DNA of 64,000 nt, taken from positions 496,001 to 560,000 of the forward strand of contig NZ_JAMXQS010000001.1 of the NCBI RefSeq assembly GCF_024053505.1. Direction: 5' to 3'. Under the pieces are notes generated by a model, which made no database searches, had not been told where the DNA came from, and saw nothing but the letters and a program-made list of their open reading frames with translations. Position numbers and translations under genes: made by a program. Below, in pieces: positions 1,202 to 51,517 of this stretch. Position 1 is the first letter of the stretch. Each line of letters starts with the position of its first letter. Source of the stretch: Mesorhizobium liriopis. Lineage in GTDB: Bacteria; Pseudomonadota; Alphaproteobacteria; Rhizobiales; Rhizobiaceae.

Positions 1202-1230
1202 TTGACACCGTGACGGTGGTTTGGTAGGGT
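1202..1230 (+). promoter_or_regulatory. Candidate sigma-70 promoter of the GTA cluster
   Basis: TTGACA at 1202-1207 is followed by a 17-base spacer and TAGGGT at 1225-1230. The preceding 25 bases are unusually AT-rich for this genome and could act as an UP element. The -35 is preceded by C, as in the rhizobial CTTGAC consensus. It points at the first GTA gene at 1303. The -10 matches only partly, so activity is inferred. Confidence 0.55.
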
Positions 1231-1302
1231 CTTGTTATCGTCGGAGAATTGCGAGTGCGGGGCGCGGCCCTGCTGCTCCGAGACAATCTACAAGGACATC
1301 GG

Positions 1303-1791
1303 ATGGGTGGGGACGAAGCAGAGGCGAAAACCTCGGATGCAGCGTTCGCGGCCATGCGCGCGATGCATGAGGGCGCGCCGGCGACGATCGAGCGATTGGC
1401 GGCAGCGATTGATCGCAGTGCGCGCGTGGTTCGGATGCGGGCGGATGCCGAGCGCTGGGTCGCAGCGGAAAGCGAGGAATCCGCCACGGCGCGGCTCAAG
1501 CGCGCTGTCGAGCGTGTGATGCGCGAGGTGGAAGCGATCGGGACAGAGAGTGGCGGGCAGGCGCTCGACAAGAGCCGGATCGACGCGGTGTGGTCGATGA
1601 TCCGCACGCTGGAAAAGGTGGACGCGTTCGCCCGCGAACAGGCGAAGGAGGAGCAGACGGGCCGCGATGGAGAACTCGCCGATATTCTCGACCGCATCGA
1701 CCGGCGCATCATCGAACTGGCTCGAGGCTATGCAGCTTGGCTGGTCGAGACGGGTGCTGTCACCCAACGAGGCGTGGCGCACGGAAGGTGA
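1303..1791 (+). CDS. Candidate GTA small terminase subunit (gp1-like)
   Basis: A 162-residue, Arg/Glu/Ala-rich, mostly helical protein placed directly before the large terminase, where GTA clusters carry gp1 (reported as small terminase in RcGTA). It has no recognisable catalytic motif; long amphipathic helices cover roughly residues 20-150, compatible with a DNA-binding oligomer. ATG 1303 is chosen because AAGGA lies about six bases upstream; a TTG at 1249 would extend it by 18 residues. Its end overlaps the start of the large terminase in another frame, a sign of translational coupling. The assignment rests on position and general character, not on a motif. Confidence 0.6.
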   Translation: MGGDEAEAKTSDAAFAAMRAMHEGAPATIERLAAAIDRSARVVRMRADAERWVAAESEESATARLKRAVERVMREVEAIGTESGGQALDKSRIDAVWSMIRTLEKVDAFAREQAKEEQTGRDGELADILDRIDRRIIELARGYAAWLVETGAVTQRGVAHGR

Positions 1792-3013
1792 GTGGCTGCA
1801 CCGGGCGCGGCTCAAGCAATATCCGCTGGAACGAATGCCGGACACCTGGCTGCTGACGGGCGGACGCGGCGCGGGCAAGACGCGGCTGGGAGCCGAATGG
1901 GTGAACGGCATGGTGCGCGGACTGCCGCCATTCGCCAAGCCCCACGACAAGCACATGGTGTTGGCACTCGTCGGTGAAACGCTGAGCGATGTGCGCGAGG
2001 TCATGGTGGACGGGCCTTCCGGCATCGTCAGCATCTCACGCGGCGACCGGCCGCGTTTCGAACCGAGCCGCAAGCGGCTGGTCTGGGACAGCGGGGCGGT
2101 GGCGCACATCTTCTCGTCGGAAGACCCGGAAAGCCTGCGCGGACCGCAATTCTATGCCGCGTGGTGCGACGAGCTGGCGAAGTGGAAGAACGCGGAAGCG
2201 ACCTTCGACATGCTGCAGTTCGGTTTGCGCCTCGGCGAGCGGCCGCGCCAGCTGGTGACGACGACGCCTCGGCCGACGCCGCTGTTCAAGCGCCTGTTGA
2301 ACGATCCATCGGTCCATGTGACGCGGATGAGCACGGATGAGAACCGGGACAATCTGGCGCCGGGCTTTCTGGCGGCAGTGGCGAAACGCTACGGCAACAC
2401 GAGGCTCGGGCGGCAGGAGCTGGATGGCGAGCTGATCGAGGAGCGCGAGGGCGCGCTCTGGTCGCGTGAGATGGTGGAACAGGCGTATCTCGCGGATGTG
2501 CCCGAGATGCGGCGCATCGTGGTGGCGGTCGATCCGCCGGCGACGAGCCGCAAGAGTTCGGATGCCTGCGGGATCGTGGCGGTCGGGTTGACGGACGACG
2601 GGCGGATCGTCGTGCTGGCGGATGAGACGCTCGGCGCCGCGAAACCGCAGGCCTGGGCGACGCGGGCGGTGAGCCTTTATCACAGGCTGGGCGCGGATTG
2701 CCTCGTGGCGGAGGTGAACCAGGGCGGCGAGATGGTCACGGCTGTGATCCGCACGGTCGATCCGCTCGTGCCGGTGAAGCCAGTGCGGGCGGCGCGCGCG
2801 AAATGGCTTCGGGCGGAGCCGGTGGCGGCCCTCTACGAGCAGGGCCGGGTGAAACATGCCGGGCGCTTCAAGGCGCTCGAAGACGAGATGTGCGATTTCG
2901 GGCCGGACGGTTTGACGAGCGGGCGTTCGCCCGACCGCACGGACGCGCTGGTCTGGGCCGTAACGGAGCTGATGCCCGGCTGGGCACCGCGACCGCGCAT
3001 CCGCGATATCTGA
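1667..3013 (+). CDS. GTA/phage large terminase (gp2-like)
   Basis: DNA-packaging motor: ATPase plus nuclease that cuts and pumps DNA into the prohead. From ATG 1667 (448 residues) the Walker A GGRGAGKT is at 65-72, a Walker B-like WCDEL with the acidic pair at 168-169, and the RNase H-like nuclease begins VVAVDPPATS with Asp at 289 and ends with SPDRTDALVW, whose Asp residues (423, 426) would complete the metal site. The start is uncertain: ATG 1730 gives a protein 21 residues shorter and reduces the overlap with the upstream gene from 125 to 62 bases. All motor and nuclease residues are present, so the enzyme looks functional. Confidence 0.93.
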   Translation: MENSPIFSTASTGASSNWLEAMQLGWSRRVLSPNEAWRTEGEWLHRARLKQYPLERMPDTWLLTGGRGAGKTRLGAEWVNGMVRGLPPFAKPHDKHMVLALVGETLSDVREVMVDGPSGIVSISRGDRPRFEPSRKRLVWDSGAVAHIFSSEDPESLRGPQFYAAWCDELAKWKNAEATFDMLQFGLRLGERPRQLVTTTPRPTPLFKRLLNDPSVHVTRMSTDENRDNLAPGFLAAVAKRYGNTRLGRQELDGELIEEREGALWSREMVEQAYLADVPEMRRIVVAVDPPATSRKSSDACGIVAVGLTDDGRIVVLADETLGAAKPQAWATRAVSLYHRLGADCLVAEVNQGGEMVTAVIRTVDPLVPVKPVRAARAKWLRAEPVAALYEQGRVKHAGRFKALEDEMCDFGPDGLTSGRSPDRTDALVWAVTELMPGWAPRPRIRDI

Positions 3014-3028
3014 TTTCGGAGGAAACCG

Positions 3029-4222
3029 ATGGGTTTGAACTGGTTCCGGCCACGGGCTGGAAACGAGCCCGCGCGCGTCGAGGAGCCGCGTGTGGAAAGA
3101 AAGAGCGCTGGCGGGTTCGTCGCACTCCATCAGGCCGGCGAAGCACGCTGGGCGCGGCGGGACTATGCGACGCTGGCGCGCGAAGGGTTCATGCGCAACC
3201 CGGTGGCGCATCGCGCGGTGCGGATGATCGCGGAAAGTGCCTCGGCCATTCCCTGGCTGCTCTATGACGGCGCGGCGGAGATCGAGACGCATCCGTTTCT
3301 GGCGCTGCTCGGGCGGCCCAACGCACGGCAGAGCGGGCCGAGCTTCATGGAGGCGCTTTACGGGCACCTGCTAATTTCCGGCAACGCCTATCCGGAGCTG
3401 ATCGAGACGGAAGGGGCGGCGCGCGAACTGCATCTGTTGCGGCCCGACCGGGTGAGCGTGGCGACCGACAGCCATGGTTGGCCGGTGGCGCTGGAGCATC
3501 GCGAGGGGCGGGCGAAGCGGCGTGTGGCATTCGGGATCGGAGCGGGTGGGGGCGTGGCGCAGCTGACGCTGTTTCATCCGCTCGACGACCATGCGGGCTT
3601 TCCGCCGCTCGAAGCGGCCTTGATGGCACTCGACACGCACAATGCGGCGAGCCGCTGGAACAAGGCATTGCTCGACAATTCGGCGCGGCCATCCGGTGCG
3701 CTCGTCTATGCGCCCAAGGATGGCGGCAACCTGTCGGACGACCAGTTCGACCGGCTCAAAGGCGAATTGGAAGAGGGCTATCAGGGGGCGCAACGGGCGG
3801 GGCGCCCGCTGCTGCTCGAAGGCGGACTCGACTGGAAGCCGATGGGGCTGACGCCGAAGGACATGGATTTCATGGAAGCGCGCAACGGCGCCGCGCGCGA
3901 CATTGCGCTGGCCTTCGGCGTGCCGCCGATGCTGCTCGGCATTCCGGGCGACAACACTTACGCGAATTACCAGGAGGCCAACCGGGCCTTCTTCCGGCTG
4001 ACCGTGCAGCCGCTCGCGAACCGCGTGGCGCGCGAGCTTTCGTGCTGGCTGGCGCCGGTGTTCGGCGAGCGGCTGCGGCTGGAACTGGACTTCGACCGCG
4101 TGGATGGGCTGGCGGCCGAACGTGACGCGCTTTGGGCGAGGCTCGAAGCGGCGAGCTTTCTTGATGAGGACGAGAAGAGGCAGGCCGTGGGCTATGCGCC
4201 CCGACCTCGTGAGCCTGCTTGA
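3029..4222 (+). CDS. HK97-family portal protein (gp3-like)
   Basis: Forms the dodecameric ring at one capsid vertex through which DNA enters and to which the tail attaches. The 397-residue length, the segment NPVAHRAVRMIAESASAIPW near 56-75 and DIALAFGVPPMLLGIPGDNTY near 291-311 are typical of HK97/GTA portals. The start ATG follows a GGAGG site, 15 bases after the terminase stop. The last three sense codons and the stop (Glu-Pro-Ala-stop, 4211-4222) fall inside the left arm of the inverted-repeat element described at 4211-4372, so the present C-terminus was probably set by that insertion. Confidence 0.95.
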   Translation: MGLNWFRPRAGNEPARVEEPRVERKSAGGFVALHQAGEARWARRDYATLAREGFMRNPVAHRAVRMIAESASAIPWLLYDGAAEIETHPFLALLGRPNARQSGPSFMEALYGHLLISGNAYPELIETEGAARELHLLRPDRVSVATDSHGWPVALEHREGRAKRRVAFGIGAGGGVAQLTLFHPLDDHAGFPPLEAALMALDTHNAASRWNKALLDNSARPSGALVYAPKDGGNLSDDQFDRLKGELEEGYQGAQRAGRPLLLEGGLDWKPMGLTPKDMDFMEARNGAARDIALAFGVPPMLLGIPGDNTYANYQEANRAFFRLTVQPLANRVARELSCWLAPVFGERLRLELDFDRVDGLAAERDALWARLEAASFLDEDEKRQAVGYAPRPREPA

Positions 4223-4372
4223 AAATGTCCTCGGGTCGGCCCAGCGGTTCTTTTTGCCGCCCGCCTCGTTGCCGAGCCTCGCCGATGCTTCAGGCATCGT
4301 CTGCGTTCGGCGCCTCGCGGAGCAACGAAAATCCCTCGCTGGCCCTCCGCCGATGAATTCTCAAACAGGCTC
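4211..4372. repeat. Inverted-repeat (MITE-like) element, long copy
   Basis: A 162-bp stretch bounded by inverted 16-base arms, GAGCCTGCTTGAAAAT at 4211-4226 and ATTCTCAAACAGGCTC at 4357-4372, matching at 14 of 16 positions. The right 40 bases (reverse strand) contain CGGCGGAGGGCC and neighbours that recur at 51460-51517. The interior has a further small hairpin around 4283-4297 and no ORF. It separates two GTA genes that would otherwise be adjacent. No target-site duplication is obvious. This resembles small rhizobial intergenic mosaic elements in size and setting; membership in a named family was not tested. Confidence 0.7.
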
Positions 4373-4386
4373 CAAGGAGGTGCGCC

Positions 4387-4728
4387 ATGAGCGTGGAGAA
4401 TGAAGCGGCCTGGCTGTGGGCCGCGAAATGCGCGGGCGCGGTGGCGGGCTCCGCGGTATCGCTGGCCTACATGCTGCCGAGCGGCCGTCATGAGGCTGCG
4501 GCCCGGTTCGTAACGGGCGTGACCTGTGGACTGGTGTTCGGGTCCACCGCCGGGCTGAAGATCGCCAACGAACTGCAGATCGGCGGGCTCCTGGGGCCGA
4601 CCGAGATCATGCTGATGGGATCGGCGGCGGCGAGCCTTTGCGCGTGGTGGGCGCTGGGGCTGTTGCGGCACCTGATGCGCGCCACGCCGCGTTCGCAAAA
4701 GCACGAGGAGGGTGGCGAGCTTGGGTGA
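4387..4728 (+). CDS. Small membrane protein of the GTA cluster (DUF6107-like)
   Basis: A 113-residue protein between portal and prohead protease, a slot often filled in rhizobial GTA clusters by a small protein of the DUF6107 type. Hydrophobic stretches near residues 12-30, 40-57 and 71-93 suggest two or three membrane segments; the C-terminus is charged (RSQKHEEGG). A strong AAGGAGG site lies eight bases before ATG 4387, just outside the repeat element. It overlaps the protease gene by 17 bases, implying coupled translation. Function is unknown; the family name is from memory of similar clusters. Confidence 0.7.
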   Translation: MSVENEAAWLWAAKCAGAVAGSAVSLAYMLPSGRHEAAARFVTGVTCGLVFGSTAGLKIANELQIGGLLGPTEIMLMGSAAASLCAWWALGLLRHLMRATPRSQKHEEGGELG

Positions 4729-5269
4729 GTTTCCGTGGGTCTATGAGCGCAAGCGCGCGAGCCTGTCACGCGAAAGCGTGAAGCCCGACGGCGTGTTCGA
4801 GGGCTATGCGAGCCTGTTCGGCGTGGCCGATCTCGGCCGCGACGTGGTGGAACGCGGGGCGTTCAACCGGTCGCTGGAACGGCGGGGCGTGAAGGGCGTG
4901 CGGATGCTGTTCCAGCACGACCCGAACCAGCCGATCGGTGCCTGGCTGTCGATTGCCGAGGACCGGCGCGGGCTCTTGGTGCGAGGGCGGCTCGCGACGG
5001 ATGTTTCCAAGGCGCGTGAGGTGCTGAGCCTGATGGAGGCGGGCGCCATCGACGGGCTTTCGATCGGCTTCAAGACGCTGCGGGCACGCACCGACAAGGC
5101 GTCCGGCACACGGCGGATCGTCGAGGCCGATCTTTGGGAAATCTCGGTGGTGACTTTCCCGATGCTGCCCGGCGCGCGGGTGGAAAGCCTGAAGGCCGAG
5201 CAGCGGCATGGGCGGAGCCTTGCGGGCCTGATCCGGCAGGCGAGCGAAATTTTCAACGTGAGAGGATGA
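4712..5269 (+). CDS. HK97-family prohead protease (gp4-like)
   Basis: Serine protease that trims the capsid scaffold during head maturation. In 185 residues it shows the family pattern: FEGYASLFGVADLGRDVVERGAF near 29-51, LFQHDPNQPIGAW with the catalytic His at 69, and DGLSIGF with the nucleophile Ser at 117. The GTG start at 4712 is supported by GAGGAG just upstream and by the coupling overlap with the preceding gene. The major capsid gene follows eight bases after its stop. Confidence 0.95.
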   Translation: MASLGEFPWVYERKRASLSRESVKPDGVFEGYASLFGVADLGRDVVERGAFNRSLERRGVKGVRMLFQHDPNQPIGAWLSIAEDRRGLLVRGRLATDVSKAREVLSLMEAGAIDGLSIGFKTLRARTDKASGTRRIVEADLWEISVVTFPMLPGARVESLKAEQRHGRSLAGLIRQASEIFNVRG

Positions 5270-5276
5270 GGGATAG

Positions 5277-6524
5277 ATGGAAGCAGCAGAGAACGTGGCG
5301 GCATTGGAAACGAAATCGGCGGGCGACTGGGATGTGAAGCAGGCCTTCGGCGAGTTCATGACGAGCTTCGAGGCCTTCAAGGAAAGCAATGACCGCCGCC
5401 TGCACGAACTCGAAGGCAAGAGCGGCGAGGATGTGGTGACGGTCGAGAAGGTGGACCGCATCAATCGCGTGCTGGACGAGCAGAAGAAGGCGCTGGATGC
5501 GCTGACGCTGAAGGGGCGTCGTCCGGCACTCGGCGGGGGAGCGGTGACGCCGAGCGAGCACAAGAGCGCGTTCGAGGCCTATGTGCGCGGCGGCGACGAG
5601 GCGGCGATCCGCGCGCTCGACACCAAGGCCATGTCCTATGGTTCGGGGCAGGATGGCGGCTATCTGGTGCCGCCGGAAACCGAGGCCGAGATCGGCAAGC
5701 GGCTGGCTTCACTCTCGCCGATCCGTGCGCTGGCGACGGTGCGGCAGGTTTCGACGGCTCTTCTCAAGAAACCGTTCTCGGTGAGCGGACCGGCGACGGG
5801 CTGGGTCGCGGAAACGGCAGCGCGGCCGCAGACGGCAAGCGCGACGCTGACCGAGCTGCAGTTCCCGACAGTGGAACTCTACGCCATGCCTGCGGCGACG
5901 CAGGCGCTGCTCGAGGATGCGGTCGTCGATCTCGACCAGTGGATCTCGGACGAGGTCGAGGCGGCCTTCGCCGAGCAGGAGGGCAAGGCTTTCGTGGTTG
6001 GCGACGGCTTGAACAAGCCAAAGGGTTTCCTGACCACCCCGAACGTGCATGAAGGCGACTGGACCTGGGGAAGCCTCGGATATGTGCCGACCGGCGTTGC
6101 GGGTGCGCTGCCGGCGAGCAACCCGTCGGACGTGCTGATCGACCTCGTTTATGCGCTGAAGGCGGGTTACCGGCAGAACGCGAACTGGCTGATGAACCGC
6201 AAGGTGCAGGCGGCGGTGCGCAAGCTGAAGGACGCGGACGGCAATTATCTGTGGTCGCCCCCGGCGCAGGCGGGTGGCCGCGCGAGCCTGATGGGCTTCG
6301 GGCTGGTCGAGGCCGAGGATATGCCGGATGCGGCAGCCAATGCGACCCCGATCGCCTTCGGTGATTTCGCGCGGGGCTATCTGATCGTCGACCGCGCCGG
6401 CGTGCGCGTGCTGCGCGACCCGTATTCCGCAAAGCCTTACGTGCTTTTCTACACAACCAAGCGCGTGGGTGGCGGCGTGCAGGACTTCGACGCGATCAAG
6501 CTGCTGAAATACAGCGCGGCCTAA
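5277..6524 (+). CDS. HK97-fold major capsid protein (gp5-like)
   Basis: Main shell protein of the head. It has 415 residues with an N-terminal region of about 90 residues rich in Lys/Glu (KQAFGEFMTSFEAFKESNDR, then a predicted coiled coil), the likely delta scaffold removed by the protease, then the HK97 core starting near SYGSGQDGGYLVPPE (about 119-133). VRQVSTALLKKPF and the WVAETAARPQTAS segment are typical of Phage_capsid family proteins. A strong terminator follows at 6578, so this gene ends the early head transcript unless read-through occurs. Confidence 0.96.
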   Translation: MEAAENVAALETKSAGDWDVKQAFGEFMTSFEAFKESNDRRLHELEGKSGEDVVTVEKVDRINRVLDEQKKALDALTLKGRRPALGGGAVTPSEHKSAFEAYVRGGDEAAIRALDTKAMSYGSGQDGGYLVPPETEAEIGKRLASLSPIRALATVRQVSTALLKKPFSVSGPATGWVAETAARPQTASATLTELQFPTVELYAMPAATQALLEDAVVDLDQWISDEVEAAFAEQEGKAFVVGDGLNKPKGFLTTPNVHEGDWTWGSLGYVPTGVAGALPASNPSDVLIDLVYALKAGYRQNANWLMNRKVQAAVRKLKDADGNYLWSPPAQAGGRASLMGFGLVEAEDMPDAAANATPIAFGDFARGYLIVDRAGVRVLRDPYSAKPYVLFYTTKRVGGGVQDFDAIKLLKYSAA

Positions 6525-6577
6525 CGGTCGGATAACAGGCGGAACCCCTGCCGCCTGCTGTTCGATGCCGTGCTGTG

Positions 6578-6616
6578 AGCGGCCCCGGTTTCTCCCGCCG
6601 GGGCCGCTTTTCTTTT
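6578..6616 (+). terminator. Intrinsic terminator inside the GTA cluster
   Basis: A perfect 11-bp stem, AGCGGCCCCGG (6578-6588) with CCGGGGCCGCT (6598-6608), and a nine-base loop, followed by TTTCTTTT. It lies between the capsid gene and the connector gene and would cut the transcript into a head part and a tail part. Confidence 0.85.
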
Positions 6617-6640
6617 CCCAATCGATGAGTGAGTGGCGCG

Positions 6641-7210
6641 ATGACGCTTTTCAGAACGGTCGGCCCGGCGGTGGAGCCGGTGCCGCTGGCGCAGGCCAAG
6701 GCGCATCTGCGCGTGACGCATGAGAGCGAGGATGATCTGCTCGAAGGGCTGATCCGCGCCGCGCGCGAGGCGGTGGAGGATCAGACGGGCCTCGCGCTGA
6801 TCGAGCAGAAATGGCGGCTGGTGCTGGATCGCTGGCCGCGCGGTGGCGTGGTGAAGCTGCTGCGGTATCCGGTTTCGGACGTGGATGCGCTGACGGTTTA
6901 CGGAAGCGATGGCGTGCCGGTGGTGATCGAGCCGGAGCGGTATGGCGTGGATCGCGTGTCGCGGCCGGCGCGGGTGCAGGCCGAGATGCCGGCGGTGAAT
7001 GCGCGGGCGCTGAACGGGATCGAGATCGATTTTACGGCCGGGTACGGCACCGACGGGACTGCGGTGCCGGAAGGGCTGAAGCTCGCGCTTTTGGTGCTCG
7101 TGGGGCACTGGTTCGAGATGCGTGGGAGCTTCGGGCCAGACGAGCAGCCGGTGTCTTACCCGGCGCAATTCGAGCGGCTGATCGCGCCGTTTCGGTTGAG
7201 GCGCCTCTAG
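6641..7210 (+). CDS. Head-tail connector protein (gp6-like)
   Basis: Adaptor placed between portal and tail. The protein of 189 residues starts MTLFRTVGPAVEP, then AQAKAHLRVTHESEDDLLEGLIRAAREAVED, the typical pattern of the phage gp6-like / GTA connector family, and ends in the YPAQFERLIAPFR motif. ATG 6641 is preferred over the in-frame GTG at 6629 because family members begin at this Met, although neither has a strong ribosome-binding site. Its stop overlaps the GTG start of the next gene by one base. Confidence 0.88.
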   Translation: MTLFRTVGPAVEPVPLAQAKAHLRVTHESEDDLLEGLIRAAREAVEDQTGLALIEQKWRLVLDRWPRGGVVKLLRYPVSDVDALTVYGSDGVPVVIEPERYGVDRVSRPARVQAEMPAVNARALNGIEIDFTAGYGTDGTAVPEGLKLALLVLVGHWFEMRGSFGPDEQPVSYPAQFERLIAPFRLRRL

Positions 7211-7542
7211 TGGCGGCGCGCATCTTTGCGGGGACGCTGCGGCACGAGATGGTGTTGCAGCGCATGGCGCCCGTGCCGGACGGGCAGGGCGGGCATGCCG
7301 AGGACTGGCAGGAGGTGGCGCGGGTGTTCGCGCGGATCGAGCCGGTCTCTGCGCGCAGCGTGACGGTTGCCGATCATGCGGAAGCGCGGGTGACGCATCG
7401 GGTGACGGTGCGGTTTCGCGACGATCTGAAGAACGGGATGCGGTTTCTGTTCGGGGAGCGCGTGCTGGAGATTTCAGCCGTGCACGATCCGGAAGAGCGC
7501 GGGCGATTTCTGCAATGCCTGGTGCGGGAGGCGGGGCGGTGA
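7210..7542 (+). CDS. Head-tail adaptor / stopper protein (gp7-like)
   Basis: A 110-residue protein of the phage head-tail joining family: FAGTLRHEMVLQRMAPVPDG, then WQEVARVFARIEPVSAR and the late THRVTVRFRDDLKNGMRFLFG segment are characteristic. It starts with GTG at 7210 in a TAGTG overlap with the connector gene and ends in a GTGA overlap with a tiny downstream ORF, so the whole stretch appears to be translated by re-initiation. Confidence 0.85.
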   Translation: MAARIFAGTLRHEMVLQRMAPVPDGQGGHAEDWQEVARVFARIEPVSARSVTVADHAEARVTHRVTVRFRDDLKNGMRFLFGERVLEISAVHDPEERGRFLQCLVREAGR

Positions 7543-7667
7543 AGCTTGGCGGAAAGCTCGATTTCAGCAGGCTGATCGCGGCGTTGCGGCTGCGGGCTCA
7601 TGCACTGGCGGAGCAGGTTGCGACATCTAAAGCGGAAAGGAGAGGCGATGACGCAGGCGAGCGCTGA
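7539..7667 (+). CDS. Possible 42-residue coupled ORF in the GTA cluster
   Basis: GTG 7539 overlaps the stop of the adaptor gene (GTGA). The ORF encodes a basic, helical peptide (VKLGGKLDFSRLIAALRLRA at its start) and ends at 7667, overlapping the DUF3168 gene by 20 bases. The AAAGGAG site of that next gene lies inside it. No family is recognised; it could be a tail-completion remnant or simply a spacer that keeps ribosomes loaded. Confidence 0.35.
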   Translation: MKLGGKLDFSRLIAALRLRAHALAEQVATSKAERRGDDAGER

Positions 7668-8025
7668 ACTGCAAAGGGCGATGTTCGAGCGGCTGTCACT
7701 GGCGGGCCTGCGGGTGTTCGACGGCGTGCCGGTGGGGTCTCTGCTGCCTTACGTCTCTTTCGGGCGCGCGAGCGCGGTGGACTGGAGCACATCGACCGAA
7801 AAGGGCGAGGAACATCTTTTCAGCCTGCATGTGTGGGCGCGGGGGCGCAAGGCCGCGCAGGAGATGGCGGGGTCGGTGAAGGCTGTGCTGGACGGCGCGG
7901 GGTTGGTGCTAGGCGCCTGTCGGCTGGTCGATCTGCGCTTCGTGCAGGCCGAGTTTCGCGATGCGGACGGGTTGGGGCTGCGCGAGGGCATTTTGCGGTT
8001 TCGCGCGCTGATCGAGATCGCTTGA
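7648..8025 (+). CDS. DUF3168 tail terminator protein (gp8-like)
   Basis: Likely caps the tail tube at the head-proximal end. The 125-residue protein has the DUF3168 pattern: LQRAMFERLSLAGLRVFDGV, LPYVSFG, then EEHLFSLHVWARGRKAAQEM and a final LREGILRFRALIE strand. ATG 7648 is preceded by AAAGGAGAGG, making it preferable to the upstream extension to 7600. It follows the adaptor and precedes the tail tube gene, the standard order. Confidence 0.88.
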   Translation: MTQASAELQRAMFERLSLAGLRVFDGVPVGSLLPYVSFGRASAVDWSTSTEKGEEHLFSLHVWARGRKAAQEMAGSVKAVLDGAGLVLGACRLVDLRFVQAEFRDADGLGLREGILRFRALIEIA

Positions 8026-8050
8026 AGAATTCAAACATAAGGAGGGCCTG

Positions 8051-8467
8051 ATGGCCGCACAGAAGGGCAAGGACCTTCTTTTGAAGCTCGACGCGGATGG
8101 CAACGGCAACTTCGTTTCCGTGGCCGGGCTGCGCTCGAAGCGATTGGCGTTCAACAGCCAGACGGTGGATGTGACCGACTCGGAGTCCGCCGGGCGCTGG
8201 CGCGAATTGCTGGGTGGCGCCGGCGTGCAGCGCGCTGCCTTGAGCGGGGCGGGCATCTTCAAGGATGCGCCATCGGACGCGGCGGTGCGCGAACGCTTCT
8301 TTGCGGGCGCGGTGAGCCGCTGGCAGGTGGCCATTCCGAGCTTCGGCGTGGTGGAAGGCCCGTTTCAGGTGAGTTCGCTGGAATATTCCGGCGCGCACGA
8401 TGCCGAGCTGACCTTCGAGATCGCGCTGGAATCGGCGGGCGCCCTGAGCTTCACGGTGATGCCATGA
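8051..8467 (+). CDS. Major tail (tube) protein, TP901-1 family (gp9-like)
   Basis: Monomer of the tail tube. It has 138 residues starting MAAQKGKDLLLKLDADGNG, with SQTVDVTDSESAGRWRELLGGAGV and the final SAGALSFTVMP, typical of phage major tail protein TP901-1 family members in GTAs. A GGAGGG ribosome-binding site precedes ATG 8051. The stop overlaps the start of the next gene (ATGA). Confidence 0.92.
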   Translation: MAAQKGKDLLLKLDADGNGNFVSVAGLRSKRLAFNSQTVDVTDSESAGRWRELLGGAGVQRAALSGAGIFKDAPSDAAVRERFFAGAVSRWQVAIPSFGVVEGPFQVSSLEYSGAHDAELTFEIALESAGALSFTVMP

Positions 8468-8811: not shown

Positions 8812-8840
8812 AGGCCAAGGCCTTTCCCTGGGCTCGCGCG

Positions 8841-9014
8841 ATGGCGCTGGGCCTCGGCTTCCTGCGGCTGGCACCGCAAGAGTTCTGGACGATGACGCCG
8901 CGCGAGTTGGAGCGCGCGCTGAGCTTCTTTTTGCCTGATGTTGAAGGGTTCGGGCGCGAACAGCTCGGCGCGCTGATGCGGGCGTTTCCCGATACGGAGA
9001 GGGTGGATGGCTGA
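8841..9014 (+). CDS. Phage tail assembly chaperone, second part (rcc01693-like)
   Basis: The frame -1 to gp10 encodes LEAKAFPWARAMALGLGFLR followed by LAPQEFWTMTPRELERAL, the hallmark of the short tail assembly chaperone found after gp10 in GTAs. The first in-frame ATG is 8841, giving 57 residues, but the conserved FPW block lies upstream of it and no ATG, GTG or TTG precedes that block in this frame after the last residues of gp10. Either the protein starts late at 8841 or it is made by a -1 frameshift from gp10. It overlaps the tape measure start by eight bases. Confidence 0.7.
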   Translation: MALGLGFLRLAPQEFWTMTPRELERALSFFLPDVEGFGREQLGALMRAFPDTERVDG

Positions 9015-9543
9015 AGAAGTGACGGTGGCGGTAACGGCCGATACCGCGCCCTTCGAGGTGGCGCTGAACAATCTTCAGCGGCTTTCGAACGGGTTCGGCG
9101 CACAGCTGACGGGCGCGTTGCGGAGCGCGACTGTGGGCGGGCGGGAGCTGGACGATGTGCTGAAGCGCGTGGGGCTCAACCTCGCCGGCATGGCGCTGAG
9201 CGAGGGGCTCAAACCGTTGCAGGGCCTGGCGAGCGGGTTTCTGGGCACGCTGATGGGTGGGGTTTCGGTGATGCCGTTCGCGAAAGGCGGGGTGGTGTCT
9301 TCGCCGAGCTATTTTCCGGCTGGCAACTCGCTGGGCCTGATGGGCGAAGCGGGGCCGGAGGCCATCATGCCACTGGCGCGCGGCGCGGATGGCAGGCTCG
9401 GCGTGGCGGGTGGCGGCGGTGGGTCGGCGGTGAACGTGGTGTTCAACGTGACCGCGACGGATGCGGGGTCGTTTCGGAAATCGGAAGCGCAGGTGACGGG
9501 CATGCTGGCGCGGGCGGTTTCGAGAGGGGCGCGGACGTTTTGA
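9007..9543 (+). CDS. Short tail tape measure protein (gp11-like)
   Basis: Sets tail length and fills the tail tube before ejection. Only 178 residues: MAEEVTVAVTADTAPFEVAL is the usual GTA tape measure start, followed by a helical region and FAKGGVVSSPSYFPAGNSLG, LMGEAGPEAIMPLARGADG near 109-127 and a Gly-rich linker, which are the conserved C-terminal parts. Siphophage tape measures are usually many hundreds of residues, so the particle would have a very short tail, as expected for GTAs. It overlaps the preceding chaperone ORF. Confidence 0.88.
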   Translation: MAEEVTVAVTADTAPFEVALNNLQRLSNGFGAQLTGALRSATVGGRELDDVLKRVGLNLAGMALSEGLKPLQGLASGFLGTLMGGVSVMPFAKGGVVSSPSYFPAGNSLGLMGEAGPEAIMPLARGADGRLGVAGGGGGSAVNVVFNVTATDAGSFRKSEAQVTGMLARAVSRGARTF

Positions 9544-9618
9544 GCAGCGTTGGGCGTTGGTGGCGAGGCCACGACGGTCCAATCCCACATCTCATCATTC
9601 ACATTCAAAGGAGAACGC

Positions 9619-10263
9619 ATGGCGCTTTCGGCGTTTCATGATGTGCGGTTTCCGCTGGCTGTCGCGTTCGGCGCGACGGGTGGGCCGGAGCGGCGGACCG
9701 AGATCGTTCAGCTGCAATCGGGGCATGAGCGGCGCAATGCGCGGTTCAGCCAGTCGCGGCGGCGCTTCGATGCAGGGTCGGGTGTGCGCTCGCTGGGCGA
9801 TCTCTACGAGCTGATGGCGTTTTTCGAGGCGCGGCGTGGGTCGCTGCATGCGTTTCGCTTTCGCGATCCGTTCGACATGAAATCCTGCGCGCCGGACGGC
9901 GTCGTGCGGGCGACGGATCAGGTGATCGGAACGGGGACCGGATCAGAGGCGCGGTTTGCGCTGGTGAAGACCTATGGAACCGGGGCCGACGCTGTGCGGC
10001 GGCCGATCACGAAGCCGGTGCCGGGGACGGTCAAGGTTGCGGTCGCTGGCGTCGAGAAGAGCGGCGCGGCGTTCACGCTGGATGCGGAGGCGGGCGCGGT
10101 CGTGTTTGCGGCCGGGCATGTGCCCTTGGCAGGACAGGTGGTGACGGCGGGCTTCGAGTTCGACGTGCCGGTGCGCTTCGACACGGAGCGGCTGGAGGCC
10201 AGCCTGACGGCGTTCAAGGCCGGCCAGGTGCCTGCCGTTCCGCTGGTCGAGGTGCAGGCATGA
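9619..10263 (+). CDS. DUF2460 distal tail protein (gp12-like)
   Basis: Baseplate/distal tail component. The 214-residue protein starts MALSAFHDVRFPLAVAFGAT and continues GGPERRTEIVQLQSGHERRN, the family signature, and ends with VRFDTERLEASL and VPLVEV. AAAGGAG sits at a good distance before ATG 9619, whereas the upstream extension to 9550 lacks such a site. Its stop overlaps the next start (ATGA at 10260). Confidence 0.93.
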   Translation: MALSAFHDVRFPLAVAFGATGGPERRTEIVQLQSGHERRNARFSQSRRRFDAGSGVRSLGDLYELMAFFEARRGSLHAFRFRDPFDMKSCAPDGVVRATDQVIGTGTGSEARFALVKTYGTGADAVRRPITKPVPGTVKVAVAGVEKSGAAFTLDAEAGAVVFAAGHVPLAGQVVTAGFEFDVPVRFDTERLEASLTAFKAGQVPAVPLVEVQA

Positions 10264-11087
10264 TGCGGTTCCCGGAGACGTTCAGGGCGTCGCTGGCGGC
10301 CCCGGTAACGACGCTCTGCCATTGCTGGAGGGTCGAGCGGCGCGATGGCGTCGTGTTCGGGTTCACGGACCATGACCGTGCGCTGGAATGGGGCGGCGTG
10401 AGCTTTGCGCCGGAAAGCGGGTTTTCGGCAAGCGAGGCGAAGAGTTCGCTGGGGTTCGGGGCGAGCCGGGCCGAGGTCGAGGGCGCGCTGTCGTCTCTGG
10501 CGATCAGCGAGGCGGATATCGATGCCGGGCTTTATGACGGGGCGCGGGTCGAGACGTTTCTGGTGAACTGGCAGGAGCCCGGTGAGCATGGGCTGCTGCG
10601 GGTGGCGCATATCGGGCGGATCGTGCGCAGCGATGGAAGCTTCGTCGCGGAACTGGAAAGCCCGATGCGGGCGCTGGACCAGCCGAAAGGGCGGTTCGTG
10701 ACGCGGACTTGCGACGCCGAATTGGGGGACGTGCGCTGCAAGGTCGGACTGGATGGCGACGCCTATCGTGCCGAAAGCACGGTGCTGGCGGTGGAGCCGA
10801 TGGGGACCGTGCACCTTTCCGGGCTTGGCAGTTTCGAGGCCGGTTGGTTCGCTTACGGGACCGTGCGTTGGGGGGAGAAGAGATCGGCGCGGGTGCGGGA
10901 GCATCGGGGTGGAGACGGGTTCGCAACGCTTGTCTTGGAAAGGGGCACGTCCGGTTTGCCGGAAGCGGGCGATGCGGTCGTTGTCACGGCGGGGTGCGAC
11001 AAGAGTTTCGGCACCTGCAAGGGGAAGTTCGGCAATGGACTGAACTTTCGCGGCTTTCCGCATCTGCCGGGCAATGACCGGGCCTAA
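10260..11087 (+). CDS. DUF2163 baseplate hub protein (gp13-like)
   Basis: Hub of the GTA baseplate. The 275-residue protein has the N-terminal DUF2163 domain (VERRDGVVFGFTDHDRALEW) and the C-terminal phage BR0599-type domain. Four cysteines at 151, 160, 246 and 253 (CDAELGDVRC and CDKSFGTC) match the pattern that binds an iron-sulfur cluster in the RcGTA hub, so a cluster is inferred here too. The final GNGLNFRGFPHLPGND is the family ending. It is translationally coupled to the gene before it. Confidence 0.93.
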   Translation: MMRFPETFRASLAAPVTTLCHCWRVERRDGVVFGFTDHDRALEWGGVSFAPESGFSASEAKSSLGFGASRAEVEGALSSLAISEADIDAGLYDGARVETFLVNWQEPGEHGLLRVAHIGRIVRSDGSFVAELESPMRALDQPKGRFVTRTCDAELGDVRCKVGLDGDAYRAESTVLAVEPMGTVHLSGLGSFEAGWFAYGTVRWGEKRSARVREHRGGDGFATLVLERGTSGLPEAGDAVVVTAGCDKSFGTCKGKFGNGLNFRGFPHLPGNDRA

Positions 11088-11134
11088 GAATATGTTTCGG
11101 AAGGTGCCGTTTTCGACGGCGGGGCGCTGGTGCC

Positions 11135-11560
11135 ATGAGCGCGGATCGGGTCGTGGCCGAGGCGATGAGCTGCGTAGGCACGCCTTATCGGCATCAGGGG
11201 CGGCGCAAGGGCGTGGGCTGTGACTGTCTGGGGCTGGTGCTGGGCGTCTGGCCGGCGGTGCAAGCGCAAGAGCCGCCGGAGCCGGGGCCTTATGCCATGG
11301 ATTGGGCCGAGACCGGGGGCGCCGAGCGGATGCTCGACGCGGCACGGCTGCATCTGCGCGAGGTGCCGCCCGCGGAACGTGCGGCGGGGCATGTCGTCCT
11401 GTTCCGCTGGCGGCGGCATCTGCCGGCGCAGCATGCGGGCATTCTCCTTTCCGACGAGCGCTTCATCCATGCCTATCAGGGACATGCGGTGACGGTGTCG
11501 CCGCTTGGGCCGCACTGGTCGCGGCGCATCGCGGGCGTGTTCGCTTTCCCGTCCGATTAA
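11135..11560 (+). CDS. NlpC/P60 cell-wall peptidase of the GTA tail (gp14-like)
   Basis: Cysteine peptidase thought to open peptidoglycan during DNA delivery. In 141 residues it has CVGTPYRHQGRRKGVGCDCL with the catalytic Cys at 31, GHVVLFRWRR and QHAGILL with the catalytic His near 100, then RFIHAYQG. The order between hub and host-specificity protein is standard. All catalytic positions are present, which argues that the cluster is still selected for function. Confidence 0.93.
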   Translation: MSADRVVAEAMSCVGTPYRHQGRRKGVGCDCLGLVLGVWPAVQAQEPPEPGPYAMDWAETGGAERMLDAARLHLREVPPAERAAGHVVLFRWRRHLPAQHAGILLSDERFIHAYQGHAVTVSPLGPHWSRRIAGVFAFPSD

Positions 11561-11586
11561 ACCTTTAAAAACCGAGCGGAGAACGC

Positions 11587-14500
11587 ATGGCGACCATCAT
11601 CTTGCAGGCCGCCGGTGCCTATCTCGGTGGGGCTCTGGGCGCGACGGGTGCCGCGATCGGCACGGCGGCGGGCGCACTTGCGGGCTATGCGGTGGACCGC
11701 GCGCTGCTTTCAGGCACGAAGCGGATCGAGGGTCCGCGACTGAGTGCGCAGAAGCCCTTCACGGCCGAGGAGGGGGCCGCCCTGCCGCGCGTTTACGGTT
11801 CGGTGCGGCTGAGCGGCACGCTGATTTGGGCGACGCGCTTCGAGGAAACGCGTGAAACGCGCCGGCAGGGCGGCAAAGGCGGGGGCGCCAAGGTTTCGGA
11901 ATACTCCTATTTCGGCAATGCTGCTTTTGCCCTGTGCGAGGGGCCGATCGCGGGCGTGCGGCGGATTTGGGCGGACGGCAAGGAGATCGACCGCGAAAGC
12001 GTCGAGTTGCGCGTGCATGTGGGCAGCGAGACGCAAGCACCCGATCCGCTGATCGAAGTGAAGCAGGGCGCGGGCAATGCGCCGGCCTATCGCGGCACGG
12101 CGACGGTGGTGATCGAGCGGCTGGCGCTTGGAGCATACGGCAACCGCCTGCCGCAGATGCAGTTCGAGGTGCTGCGGCCGGTCGGGCTGCTGCACGAGCG
12201 CCTGCGCGCGGTGGCGCTGATTCCGGGTTCCACGGAGTACGGGCTCTCGCCGAAGCTCGTGACGCAGACCCTGCGGCCGGGCGAGACCGAGGCGGTGAAC
12301 CGGCATGTGATGCATGCCGACACGGACCTCGCGGCGTCGCTCGACGAGTTGCAGATGCTATGTCCGAACCTCATGCATGTCGCGCTGGTAGTATCGTGGT
12401 TCGGCGACGATCTGCGGGCCGATCAGTGCCGCATCAGGCCGGGCGTGACGGATCGGGGGGCGCGCGGGTTTTCGGCAGACTGGTCGGTGTCGGGTGTGTC
12501 GCGAAGCGCCGCGCATGAGGTGAGCCGGCATCGCGGCAGCGCGGCCTATGGCGGAACGCCTTCCGACGAGAGCGTGGTGGCGGCGATCCGCGAGATCCGC
12601 TCGCGCGGGCTGAAGGTGACGCTTTATCCGTTCGTGATGATGGATGTGCCGGAGGGCAACGGGTTGCCCGATCCATATGGCGGGGCGGAGCAGGCGGCCT
12701 ATCCTTGGCGCGGGCGGATCACGGTCAATCCGGCCCCGGGGCGCAGCGGGAGCCCGGACCGGACGGCAGCGGTGCGCGAGCTCGTTTCGGCGTTTTGCGG
12801 GGCGACGCGCGTTGCCGATTTCGATGTGTCGGATGATGCGGTTCGTTTCGGCGGCGGCAGCGAGGATTGGGGCTACCGCAGGCTGATCCTGCATTATGCG
12901 CATCTGGCCGAGGCTGCGGGCGGGGTGGATGCGTTTCTGGTCGGCTCGCAGCTGCGCGGGCTTTCGACGCTGCGCTCGGGCCCGCGTGCGTTTCCGTTCG
13001 TGGAAGAGCTTTGCAGGCTGGCGGGCGAGTGCCGCGCGGTCCTCGGGCCCGAGACGGCCATTACCTATGGCGCGGATTGGAGCGAGTATTTCGGGCATCA
13101 GCCGGCGGATGGCAGCGGGGACGTGCTGTTTCATCTCGACCCGCTCTGGTCGCATCCGGCGATCAGCGCGGTGGGCATCGACAACTATATGCCGCTCAGC
13201 GATTGGCGCGACGAGGACTATGCGGGTGGCAACCCGGATGGGGCACTCTCGCCTTCTGACGCTGGCGCGCTGCGGCGGGCGATCGCGGGCGGCGAAGGGT
13301 ATGACTGGTTCTACACGAGTGCGGCGCACCGCGCAGCGCGCTTGCGCACGCCGATCACGGATGGGGCTTACGGCAAACCGTGGGTCTATCGTCCGAAGGA
13401 TCTGTCGGGGTGGTGGAGCAATCTTCACCACGACCGGATCGGCGGTGTCGAGCATGCGGCGCCGACTGCCTGGCAACCGGGTTCGAAGCCGATCTGGCTG
13501 ACGGAACTGGGCTGCCCGGCAGCCGACAAGGGCGCGAACCAGCCCAACGTGTTTCCCGATCCGAAATCGGCTGAAAGCGCGCGGCCATTTTTTTCGAATG
13601 GCGGGCGGTCGGACCTCGTGCAGCGGCGCTTTCTGGACGCGCATCTGGGCTGGTGGGATGCGGCGGATGAGGACTTCGAGGGTGCGGCTAATCCGGTTTC
13701 ACCGATCTATGGCGGGCGGATGCTCGACGCGGAACGAATCTATGCCTGGGCATGGGATGCGCGGCCGTTTCCGGCCTTTCCGTTGAACGGCGACTATTGG
13801 GGCGACAGTGCGAACTGGCAGGCCGGGCACTGGCTGAACGGGCGCGTGGAGGCGCCGGCGCTGGGCGATCTGATCAGTGCCGTGCTGGCGGATCACGGCT
13901 TGCCGAGGGCGCGCAGTGAAGGCGTGGAAGGCAGCGTTCAGGGCTATCTGGTGGAGCCGGGCTCGGCGCGCGATGCGCTGGAGCCGCTGGTGGAGTTGTT
14001 CGATCTGTCGGTCACCGAAGGATCGGATGGCATCGAGGTCAGGGGCGGCGTACCTTCGGAGAGGCTTTCTGTCGCGGCCGGCGAGATCGTCGTCGAGGAC
14101 GATGCGGCGGTGATGGTGGCGAGCCGCGAGGCGGACGGCGATCTGCCCGCCGAGGTGCTGCTGAATTTTCAGGACCTGCTGAAGGACTATCAGGGTTCGA
14201 CGGTGCGGAGCATCCGCATGGGTGCGCCGGGGCGACGGCAGCAGGTGCTGAGCCTGCCGGTCGTGCTCGACCCCGGTGCGGCCGAGGCCATCGCCGAGGA
14301 TTGGTTGCGCGGCCAATGGAGCAAGCGCGACGAACTGCGCTTTTCGCTCGCCCCGCAGGTTCCGATCGGACCGGGGGTAGTGATCGACGGCTTGGGGGGA
14401 CCGTTGGTGGTGACGGATGTCGAGAGTGGATTGGTCCAGCGGGTAACAGCGCGGCGGCAAGCCGGTGCGATACCCGCACCCTGGCGAGGCGATGGTGTTG

Positions 14501-15480
14501 CAGGCGTGAGGGTTGCGACAATGCCTGCGGTCGGCACGCCGCATTTCCTCCTGCTCGACCTGCCATCGCTCTCGAGCGCGCAGCAGCCGGAAAGCCGTTT
14601 GCAGGTAGCACTCTACCAGAAGCCTTGGCGGAGCCAGACGGTTTCGGTTTCACCAGGCGAGAGCGGGTTCGAGGTTCGCACTCAGGTCGGACGGCAGGCC
14701 AATGTCGGGAGGCTGGTTTCCGCGCTGGCACCGGGCGTTTCGGGCCGATTTTCCCGAGGGAGCGCGCTCGAAGTCGAACTGTTTGCGGGCGAGGCAGCCA
14801 ATGTTGCGATTCCGAACCTGTTGAACGGGGCGAATGTCGCCGCGGTTCGCAGTGCGAACGGGGCTTGGGAGGTTCTGCAATTCGGCGTGGCGGAAGAGAT
14901 ATCTGCCGGCACTTTCCGTCTCTCGACGCTTCTACGTGGGCAGCTCGGAACCGAGGACGCGATGATGGCGGGGTGCCCGGAGGGCGCCGATGTCGTGCTT
15001 CTCGACGATGCCGTGGTGCCGGCTGGGCTGCGGGCGACGGAACTGGGCTTGCAGCTCAACTGGCGCGCGACGCCATCGGGTGCCGATCTTTCGGCGCAGA
15101 ATTCGGCGAGCGCGACAGGACCGGGCGGGGTTCGAGCGAGGCTGCCATTGTCTCCAGTGCATCTGCGCGCCGAGAAAGCGGCGGGTGGGATTTGCTTCTC
15201 CTGGACGAGGCGGGGAAGGCTGGATGCCGATGGCTGGGAGGGCCCGGATATCCCGCTGGGTGAGCAGCGCGAAATCTATCAGGCCGTTCTTGCGGGGCCG
15301 GCGGGCGTGATCGCGTCAGCCGAAGTGCGGGAGCAGGCATGGCTTTGCGAGAGCCAATTGCTCGAAGACGCGGACGTCGACGGGGAAACCGTCTCACTGA
15401 GCGTCCGCCAGGGCAGCGATGCTGTCGGCTGGGGCCTGCCCGCGAGCCGCAGTTTCGCGGTTCAAGAACTTATCATTTGA
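11587..15480 (+). CDS. GTA host-specificity megatron protein with TIM-barrel domain (gp15-like)
   Basis: The largest GTA protein (1297 residues), forming the tip of the tail. An N-terminal glycine-rich membrane-like segment (GGALGATGAAIGTAAGALAG, about 14-33) precedes the tail-module region; residues about 430-740 form the GTA TIM-barrel, glycosidase-like domain (LTELGCPAADKGANQPNVFP near its end), followed by a phage tail domain near 780-950 and a C-terminal beta-rich region. In RcGTA it joins the hub and contacts the cell. ATG 11587 follows a GAGCGGAG site. The reading frame is uninterrupted, so no decay is visible. Confidence 0.95.
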   Translation: MATIILQAAGAYLGGALGATGAAIGTAAGALAGYAVDRALLSGTKRIEGPRLSAQKPFTAEEGAALPRVYGSVRLSGTLIWATRFEETRETRRQGGKGGGAKVSEYSYFGNAAFALCEGPIAGVRRIWADGKEIDRESVELRVHVGSETQAPDPLIEVKQGAGNAPAYRGTATVVIERLALGAYGNRLPQMQFEVLRPVGLLHERLRAVALIPGSTEYGLSPKLVTQTLRPGETEAVNRHVMHADTDLAASLDELQMLCPNLMHVALVVSWFGDDLRADQCRIRPGVTDRGARGFSADWSVSGVSRSAAHEVSRHRGSAAYGGTPSDESVVAAIREIRSRGLKVTLYPFVMMDVPEGNGLPDPYGGAEQAAYPWRGRITVNPAPGRSGSPDRTAAVRELVSAFCGATRVADFDVSDDAVRFGGGSEDWGYRRLILHYAHLAEAAGGVDAFLVGSQLRGLSTLRSGPRAFPFVEELCRLAGECRAVLGPETAITYGADWSEYFGHQPADGSGDVLFHLDPLWSHPAISAVGIDNYMPLSDWRDEDYAGGNPDGALSPSDAGALRRAIAGGEGYDWFYTSAAHRAARLRTPITDGAYGKPWVYRPKDLSGWWSNLHHDRIGGVEHAAPTAWQPGSKPIWLTELGCPAADKGANQPNVFPDPKSAESARPFFSNGGRSDLVQRRFLDAHLGWWDAADEDFEGAANPVSPIYGGRMLDAERIYAWAWDARPFPAFPLNGDYWGDSANWQAGHWLNGRVEAPALGDLISAVLADHGLPRARSEGVEGSVQGYLVEPGSARDALEPLVELFDLSVTEGSDGIEVRGGVPSERLSVAAGEIVVEDDAAVMVASREADGDLPAEVLLNFQDLLKDYQGSTVRSIRMGAPGRRQQVLSLPVVLDPGAAEAIAEDWLRGQWSKRDELRFSLAPQVPIGPGVVIDGLGGPLVVTDVESGLVQRVTARRQAGAIPAPWRGDGVAGVRVATMPAVGTPHFLLLDLPSLSSAQQPESRLQVALYQKPWRSQTVSVSPGESGFEVRTQVGRQANVGRLVSALAPGVSGRFSRGSALEVELFAGEAANVAIPNLLNGANVAAVRSANGAWEVLQFGVAEEISAGTFRLSTLLRGQLGTEDAMMAGCPEGADVVLLDDAVVPAGLRATELGLQLNWRATPSGADLSAQNSASATGPGGVRARLPLSPVHLRAEKAAGGICFSWTRRGRLDADGWEGPDIPLGEQREIYQAVLAGPAGVIASAEVREQAWLCESQLLEDADVDGETVSLSVRQGSDAVGWGLPASRSFAVQELII

Positions 15481-15502
15481 TGACATGATGGAGTATGAGA
15501 GC

Positions 15503-15709
15503 ATGCAGGACACCAAGCCTTGGTATCTGTCGCGGACGATCTGGGCGTCCGTGGTTACGGTGATGATGGCGCTGGCAGGATATCTGAACCTGCCCGTTCA
15601 GGACGGCGACCACGCGCTGGTGACCGAAGCGCTGTTCCAGATCGTATCGGCGCTGGCCGGGCTGACTGGAATCGCGGGACGTCTTTTGGCGCGGGACCGG
15701 ATCGGCTAG
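15503..15709 (+). CDS. Small membrane protein at the end of the GTA cluster, possibly holin-like
   Basis: A 68-residue protein starting MQDTKPWYLSRTIWASVVTV with one hydrophobic segment near residues 11-30 and a second weaker one near 44-62. Similar PWYLSRT-type small proteins accompany phage lysis or tail modules, so a holin-like or membrane-anchoring role in particle release is possible, but nothing in the sequence proves it. ATG 15503 has GGAG nine bases upstream; ATG 15485 or 15488 are alternatives. It is co-directional with gp15 and 22 bases after it. Confidence 0.65.
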   Translation: MQDTKPWYLSRTIWASVVTVMMALAGYLNLPVQDGDHALVTEALFQIVSALAGLTGIAGRLLARDRIG

Positions 15710-51459: not shown

Positions 51460-51517
51460 GAGCCCGTTTGAGACTATCCTCGGCGGAGGGCCGGCGGGGA
51501 ATTCTCAAAAGGTTCTC
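51460..51517. repeat. Inverted-repeat (MITE-like) element, short copy
   Basis: Begins GAGCCCGTTTGAGA directly after the rpoZ stop and ends TCTCAAAAGGTTCTC, an imperfect inverted repeat of its start. Its core CGGCGGAGGGCC(G/A)GCG matches the reverse strand of the long copy (4211-4372), with AGCC(C/T)GTTTGAGA outside. At 58 bp it appears to be an internally shortened version. It may work as an mRNA hairpin between rpoZ and rsh. Confidence 0.65.

Follow-up and report, generated by a model that had tools for sequence, protein, structure and literature searches.

The window analysed here, a stretch of 64,000 nucleotides of the Mesorhizobium liriopis genome (contig NZ_JAMXQS010000001.1, positions 496,001 to 560,000), carries at 1202-15709 an intact head-tail gene cluster of a gene transfer agent (GTA) of the type of RcGTA, the agent of Rhodobacter capsulatus. 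The genes lie at 1303-15709 in canonical order, all on the forward strand and with no internal stops. Judged by its gene families the cluster is an RcGTA-type GTA, a class already known, and conserved regulatory and lysis features make it a variant of that type. The locus is probably a resident, vertically inherited GTA with RogA-type repression, GafZ-type antitermination and holin-assisted release.

A capsid search of species genomes returned 490 relatives, and the best 80 loci were kept (capsid identity 64-77%; nearly all rhizobial by title); many of these are interrupted by contig ends, which bears on the gene counts given below. Assignments of the cluster genes are given with E values in brackets. 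The first gene (1303-1791, ATG at 1303) is gp1, a putative small terminase gene by its position, with homologues in 39 of the 80 loci and no match above the cut-off in the family libraries searched. It is followed by gp2, the large terminase (1667-3013, start uncertain; PF03237, 1.9e-30; PF17289, 2.4e-22) with a Walker A motif at residue 65, and by gp3, the portal of HK97 type (3029-4222; PF04860, 3.2e-82; TIGR01537 above its cut-off). A gene for a small DUF6107 protein with hydrophobic stretches (4387-4728; PF19602, 1.3e-34), present in 77 of the 80 loci, precedes gp4, the prohead protease of family S78 (4712-5269; PF04586, 8.9e-34), and gp5, the major capsid protein of HK97 fold (5277-6524; PF05065, 2.1e-92; RcGTA capsid 6tb9, 2.2e-97). 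Connector and tail genes are gp6, head-tail connector (6629-7210; PF05135, 3.6e-12), gp7, head completion (7207-7542; PF05521, 2.7e-24), gp8, tail completion (7600-8025, start uncertain and possibly internal; PF11367, 1e-24), gp9, tail tube (8051-8467; PF06199, 1.5e-42), gp10 (8464-8811; PF11836, GTA-gp10, 4.3e-31), gp10.1, tail assembly chaperone (TAC; 8805-9010, start uncertain; PF09550, 1.2e-17), and gp11, a tape measure of 178 amino acids (9007-9543), whose match to NF058675 begins at model position 40 and reaches 142 bits, below the cut-off of 220. The distal end is encoded by gp12, distal tail protein, DUF2460 (9550-10263, start uncertain and possibly internal; TIGR02217, 1.2e-84), gp13, baseplate hub with six cysteines (10260-11087; PF09931, 9.7e-56; PF09356, 1.1e-22), gp14, NlpC/P60 tail peptidase (11135-11560; TIGR02219, 3.1e-48), and gp15, the megatron (11587-15480; NF048004, 1609 bits against a cut-off of 800; RcGTA 6tba, 4.9e-266). 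RcGTA was the best PDB match for both proteins compared, the capsid and the megatron.

An earlier sequence-only reading of this DNA had described a complete, intact cluster with gp1 to gp15 in order on one strand, and the open frames, canonical order and RcGTA-type families bear this out, gp1 by position alone. Its report of motor, protease, peptidase and hub cysteine residues also finds support: in addition to the Walker A motif and the six hub cysteines, candidate protease His/Ser and gp14 Cys/His residues were located. The RcGTA hub uses four conserved cysteines (PMC7296036). Families, gene order and best PDB matches likewise support its placement of the cluster among known alphaproteobacterial GTAs. 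The tape measure is shorter than the RcGTA model in related loci as well (median 187 amino acids in 73 loci against 220 model positions); the tail may be shorter accordingly. GC skew is strongly positive throughout the cluster; GC-skew patterns near GTA clusters are discussed in PMC9836097. An Rfam search of the window returned two tRNAs only.

The surroundings of the cluster are those of a chromosomal locus. Cellular genes flank it directly, an mrcA-type penicillin-binding protein (PBP) gene upstream and response regulator, kinase and CcmH/CycH-like genes downstream. Its place between mrcA and a phoP-like gene is common to many related loci: counting the window, 56 of 81 loci have the PBP gene (Transgly and Transpeptidase domains) adjoining the cluster in opposite orientation, and the phoP-like gene was found in 49 of the 80. 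Pairwise distances of gp2, gp3, gp5 and gp15 correlate with those of mrcA (Mantel r 0.903, 0.874, 0.878 and 0.890; n=51), and none of 999 permutations reached the observed value for any of the four; for the membrane gene at the end of the cluster r is 0.783 (n=45). Since the GTA genes diverge in step with mrcA and keep their place, the locus fits a resident GTA and not a phage. Six further ORFs were tested between the activator genes gafYZ and mrcA; five belong to non-phage families and one has no family. No phage integration or replication genes were seen among the cluster genes or the ten flanking ORFs tested; no genome-wide search for an integrase or att sites was made. A short conserved ORF (15803-16090), present in 50 of the 80 loci and without a family match, lies between the holin-like and phoP-like genes.

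The promoter module lies immediately upstream of gp1. Its core, TTGACA-N17-TAGGGT (1202-1230, forward strand), has TTGACA beginning at 1202 and TAGGGT at 1225, with a spacer of 17 nucleotides. In the 68 loci with enough upstream DNA, TTGACNNCGTNACGGT occurs at no more than two mismatches in 61, the window included, and at three mismatches in the remaining 7, versus 0.85 on average and never more than 4 in 20 mononucleotide shuffles. The conserved upstream block of the related loci reads TAGGAAwwwwTyCTTGACacCGTnACGGTg...TAG...ATcGTCggaaAAgTGtG. A generic sigma-70 scan returned no site in 9 of 12 cases. A longer promoter pattern with three mismatches allowed matched the genome once, at the GTA promoter and there without any mismatch; the reversed control also gave one match.

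Three conserved elements are associated with this core. A RogA-operator-like dyad, TAGGAATATATTCTTG (1189-1204), of the type TAGGAA-N4-TTCCTA, overlaps the -35 element; at the conserved GTA promoters TAGGAAWWWWTTCCTA is found within three mismatches in 61 of 61 and within two in 57 of 61, counts that have no shuffle control. The palindrome CACCGTGACGGTG (1206-1218) lies in the spacer between -35 and -10 as a candidate GafZ-binding element (ZBE), with the position of the Caulobacter ZBE and a different sequence. In Caulobacter the near-perfect palindrome GCGCCCG-CTGGCGC between -35 and -10 is required for GafZ binding (PMC11150451), and the position of the spacer palindrome CACCGTNACGGTG makes it, by analogy, a candidate GafZ-loading site. 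Downstream of -10 a conserved block, ATCGTCGGAGAATTGCG (1237-1253, forward strand), with the alignment consensus ATCGTCGGAAAAGTGTG in most of the promoters aligned, may act in pausing or loading. A near-consensus -35 is reported to have made the Caulobacter promoter active irrespective of GafYZ (PMC11150451); a direct operator may have been retained at the present GTA promoter because its -35 is near consensus.

About 10 kb upstream of the cluster, gafY (Bac_DnaA_C) is directly followed by gafZ (DUF6456), both with open frames; the DUF6456 match is the only one in the genome. The sequence-only reading had proposed a search for gafA-like regulators and had named the lack of every other GTA locus, coupled with an absence of particles, as a result that would speak against it; this activator pair is such a further locus. 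DUF6456 was found in 26 of the 31 genomes searched, this one included, and 15 of them also hold the terminal membrane gene, on the same contig in 13 and on a separate contig in two. Of these 13, 10 have DUF6456 and the membrane gene on one strand, with DUF6456 upstream at a distance of 23-38 kb; the two are 60-90 kb apart in the remaining three, once on opposite strands and once with DUF6456 downstream.

The dyad of the GTA promoter recurs at these regulators. Upstream of or at the gafY start, TAGGAAWWWWTTCCTA was found within three mismatches in 20 of 24 genomes and within two in 16; 50 shuffles averaged 0.28 and never exceeded 2, and neither of two control regions gave a site in any of the 24. 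RogA of Caulobacter bound gafYZ-promoter fragments with GGAA-N4-TTCC inverted repeats (PMC9632790), and TAGGAAWWWWTTCCTA includes GGAA-N4-TTCC; by this likeness the dyad is a putative RogA-type operator. A genome-wide search at no more than two mismatches found three places, with none in the reversed control: the GTA promoter, a site that precedes a primase-like ORF by about 50 bp (contig C17:198255-198270), and a site beside a recombinase-like ORF, both ORFs being named by eye. Use of the dyad as a marker of a wider GTA regulon was rejected, the two places other than the promoter revealing no accessory GTA gene.

Between gp5 and gp6 a GC-rich hairpin with a 13-pair stem is followed by a T tract (6577-6609, forward strand) and resembles an intrinsic terminator. 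A terminator-like site occurs in 38 of 79 unselected gp5-gp6 gaps on the forward strand and in 8 of 79 on the reverse; ten dinucleotide shuffles of these gaps averaged 1.7 sites and never exceeded 3, the real count being about 20-fold higher, and the next highest forward count outside gp5-gp6, among gaps with at least 40 loci, was 7 of 44. For covariation all 60 gp5-gp6 gaps of 40-160 nucleotides were aligned and the window's ten pairs were used as the structure. Pairing holds in 86.4% of cells versus at most 48.3% for every slid version, a comparison tilted towards the unslid structure by its having been taken from one of the aligned sequences. Double changes number 42 cells versus 13.3 in shuffled alignments, with all ten pairs showing them somewhere. 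An earlier subset of 44 of the 60 gaps, picked after looking, gave 92.3% pairing, 9 of ten pairs and 29 versus 6.8 cells. The covarying, terminator-like hairpin after the capsid gene is, from these alignments, a candidate terminator. A terminator likewise follows the capsid gene in phage T7. GafZ of Caulobacter allows part of the polymerase to pass a terminator after gtaT (PMC11150451).

The cluster ends with a gene for a two-helix, holin-like membrane protein (15485-15709, forward strand) with two hydrophobic regions and the motif KPWYxSRTIW. It is present in 57 of the 80 loci, with a median length of 68 amino acids over the 57 copies, the window's included. Among genomes searched for it, 27 of 37 from the same family and 2 of 24 from elsewhere in the order have it. 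Nineteen of 23 members of the protein family match phrog_34682 'holin' (best E 2.4e-8); Pfam matches are weak. GTA_holin_3TM, which its family name suggests to be the RcGTA-type holin, had no match in this genome. Of 70 genomes 11 were positive in the same search, split into 3 of 36 same-family, 1 of 11 other-order and 7 of 23 other-class genomes; one of the three same-family genomes also carries the membrane gene. The two distributions would be compatible with replacement of GTA_holin_3TM by the membrane gene but are no proof of it, as many genomes have neither gene. A three-transmembrane holin is not defining for the Caulobacter crescentus agent, CcGTA, which has no homologues of the R. capsulatus lysis genes (PMC9632790).

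A dispersed repeat of 167 bp at 4211-4377, with the terminal inverted repeats GAGCCTGnTTGA...TCTCAAACAGGCTC, resembles a miniature inverted-repeat transposable element (MITE) and supplies the last codons and the stop of gp3. This genome has 11 matches of at least 116 bp, itself included, at 71-100% identity, plus shorter fragments; a 47-bp fragment, 83% identical, lies at 51460-51506 of the window. Among 40 relatives searched the repeat was absent from all 24 same-family genomes; elsewhere in the order, a single genome carries two nearly complete copies (74 and 78%) plus shorter pieces, and another a 26-bp match. No clear target-site duplication was seen by eye in the alignment. Disruption of gp3 was rejected, the C-terminus being of usual length and the insertion lying at the natural gp3 end. 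A role as terminator like that of the 150-bp repeats of Caulobacter found no support: the RNA fold barely improves on shuffles (z of -1.09, with 26 of 200 shuffles as good), the gap between gp3 and the DUF6107 gene fails the strict terminator rule, although a looser scan gives one site of 6 pairs at 4233-4250, and the repeat is missing from all other loci among the best 80 of 490.

Three features which the sequence-only reading had presented as peculiar to this version fare differently. The insertion that it called transposable-like is real and is the MITE-like element at 4211-4377. Its promoter is real too, only shared with related loci (61 of 68) and not particular to the window. The small extra membrane gene exists, with two candidates (4387-4728 and 15485-15709), neither of them special at 77 and 57 of 80 loci. 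Among promoter, repeat and membrane genes, the repeat alone sets this lineage apart, the 24 same-family genomes searched being without it.

In the mechanism proposed for the resident GTA, a RogA-type repressor would keep gafYZ and the main promoter off through their common TAGGAA-N4-TTCCTA dyad. Once the repressor is relieved, GafY would aid the start of transcription and GafZ would load on RNA polymerase at the spacer palindrome CACCGTNACGGTG, and the GafZ-loaded polymerase would pass the post-capsid terminator. Without GafZ the terminator would restrict output to gp1-gp5 and so favour capsid. Particles would package host DNA, and the holin-like protein would help to open the cell. These parts may form a two-lock switch of rhizobial GTAs, with a RogA-type operator on both promoters, the CACCGTNACGGTG palindrome as a lineage-specific site for GafZ, a terminator after the capsid gene and a holin at the operon end, a proposal that is put forward tentatively and somewhat against the odds. 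If it is true, everything downstream of the capsid gene depends on antitermination and capsid is boosted.

Several observations weigh against this account. The strict terminator rule is failed by 41 of the 79 related gp5-gp6 gaps, and a post-capsid terminator as a general GTA feature was rejected, as just 5 of the 29 GTA loci from farther afield have such a site (200 nucleotides after the capsid stop were scanned where gp6 was not placed close by). The -35 element is near consensus, unlike the AATCAT of Caulobacter, so that dependence on GafY may be weaker or absent. The gafY site of this genome departs from the dyad at three positions, and at 4 of 24 gafY loci no dyad lies within three mismatches. 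Candidates for RogA are four S24 matches, one of them LexA-like, none assignable without a RogA sequence. The window's membrane protein misses E 0.01 against the holin family (phrog_34682, E 0.055). Glyco_hydro_108, which we take to be the RcGTA-type endolysin, had no match in the genome in a search that had no positive control.

The regulatory elements could be read otherwise, the post-capsid hairpin as a structure for mRNA stabilisation or processing and the palindromes of the promoter as sites for other proteins, such as IHF or an unrelated repressor. This is unlikely but deserves some weight. Many loci retain the stem with few T after it, whereas the window's stem has 13 pairs with a T tract, and terminator-like sites are about 20-fold over shuffles on the forward strand and fewer on the reverse (38 versus 8 of 79). 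Similarly, the ZBE sequence is unlike that of Caulobacter, yet a palindrome stands at the ZBE position and the dyad includes GGAA-N4-TTCC.

Two further alternatives concern the nature of the locus. It might be a silent or decaying GTA remnant that lost particle production with an outlying gene (head spike, tail fibre or endolysin), and the failure to match GTA_holin_3TM, in a search positive in 11 of 70 genomes, and Glyco_hydro_108, in the search without a positive control, would agree with that, as would a repeat inserted within the cluster. However, no frame is broken, gafYZ lies near with open frames, promoter and hairpin are retained and the repeat sits at the natural end of gp3, and a remnant is accordingly considered quite improbable. 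Extremely improbable is an RcGTA-related prophage that packages its own genome; vB_MseS-P1 is a known RcGTA-related prophage (PMC11409702). The cluster is homologous to phage genes, and megatron-like proteins occur in 62 phage-collection records (E 1e-50), two of which are GTA loci themselves. The prophage reading was rejected on the cellular genes bordering the cluster on both sides, the same place in many relatives and the divergence that tracks mrcA, to which the ORFs between gafYZ and mrcA add five non-phage families out of six, one being without a family; an integrase or att sites were not searched genome-wide.

As a practical consequence, clusters of this kind are stored in virus collections as if they were phages. 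The 'phage' records MW091529.1 and MW462191.1 both contain a cluster of this type, complete with the membrane gene and with a capsid 64-68% identical. Genes in the phoP and phoQ positions follow the membrane gene; antibiotic efflux labels stand at both positions in MW091529.1 and at the phoQ position only in MW462191.1. Both records resemble GTA loci of rhizobial chromosomes. The membrane protein is encoded by 201 stretches in IMG/VR; of the 80 retained, examined over 4 kb upstream of the membrane gene, the megatron is found in 79 and ends shortly before the membrane gene in 78. Many of these contigs are about 14-15 kb long. Going by gene content, most of the stretches look like GTA clusters catalogued as viruses. 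A record titled Bacillus subtilis SK6B4 (JAHREI010000009.1) holds a GTA cluster that by eye resembles Pseudochrobactrum loci, and is probably a mislabelled or contaminated assembly.

Most of what has been worked out on the control and release of such GTAs comes from R. capsulatus and C. crescentus, and rhizobial GTAs are widespread in soil and plant-associated bacteria. The conserved sites provide named DNA targets for repressor, antiterminator, terminator and lysis in rhizobial GTAs and suggest which control parts are rewired between lineages. The window's cluster is one of the rhizobial GTA clusters surveyed in PMC9836097 and PMC11409702; as far as their accessible text goes, these surveys treat presence, location and phylogeny and not the promoter, terminator and membrane-gene features described here. 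Titles and abstracts of the literature searched, with few subscription papers covered, likewise report none of these rhizobial elements.

The proposed two-lock switch may differ from both studied GTAs, a suggestion made with the same reserve as the switch itself. The cluster shares with RcGTA the g1-g15 order and homologues of capsid, hub, NlpC/P60 peptidase and megatron. It differs in the extra holin-like gene at the cluster end, with no GTA_holin_3TM match in the genome, in an activator split into gafY and gafZ near the cluster, and in a tape measure that falls about 30-40 residues short of the RcGTA model. With CcGTA it has in common the split gafYZ, a palindrome in the promoter spacer, a terminator-like site inside the cluster and an element of GGAA-N4-TTCC type upstream of gafYZ. 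The palindrome sequence is another one, however, and the -35 is near consensus. The RogA-type dyad here stands also on the main promoter, whereas the available text of PMC9632790 reports RogA in Caulobacter at gafYZ and CCNA_02002 only. The hairpin follows the capsid gene, in contrast to the Caulobacter terminator after gtaT, and the holin-like gene lies within the cluster, whereas Caulobacter uses LypABC (PMC13236601).

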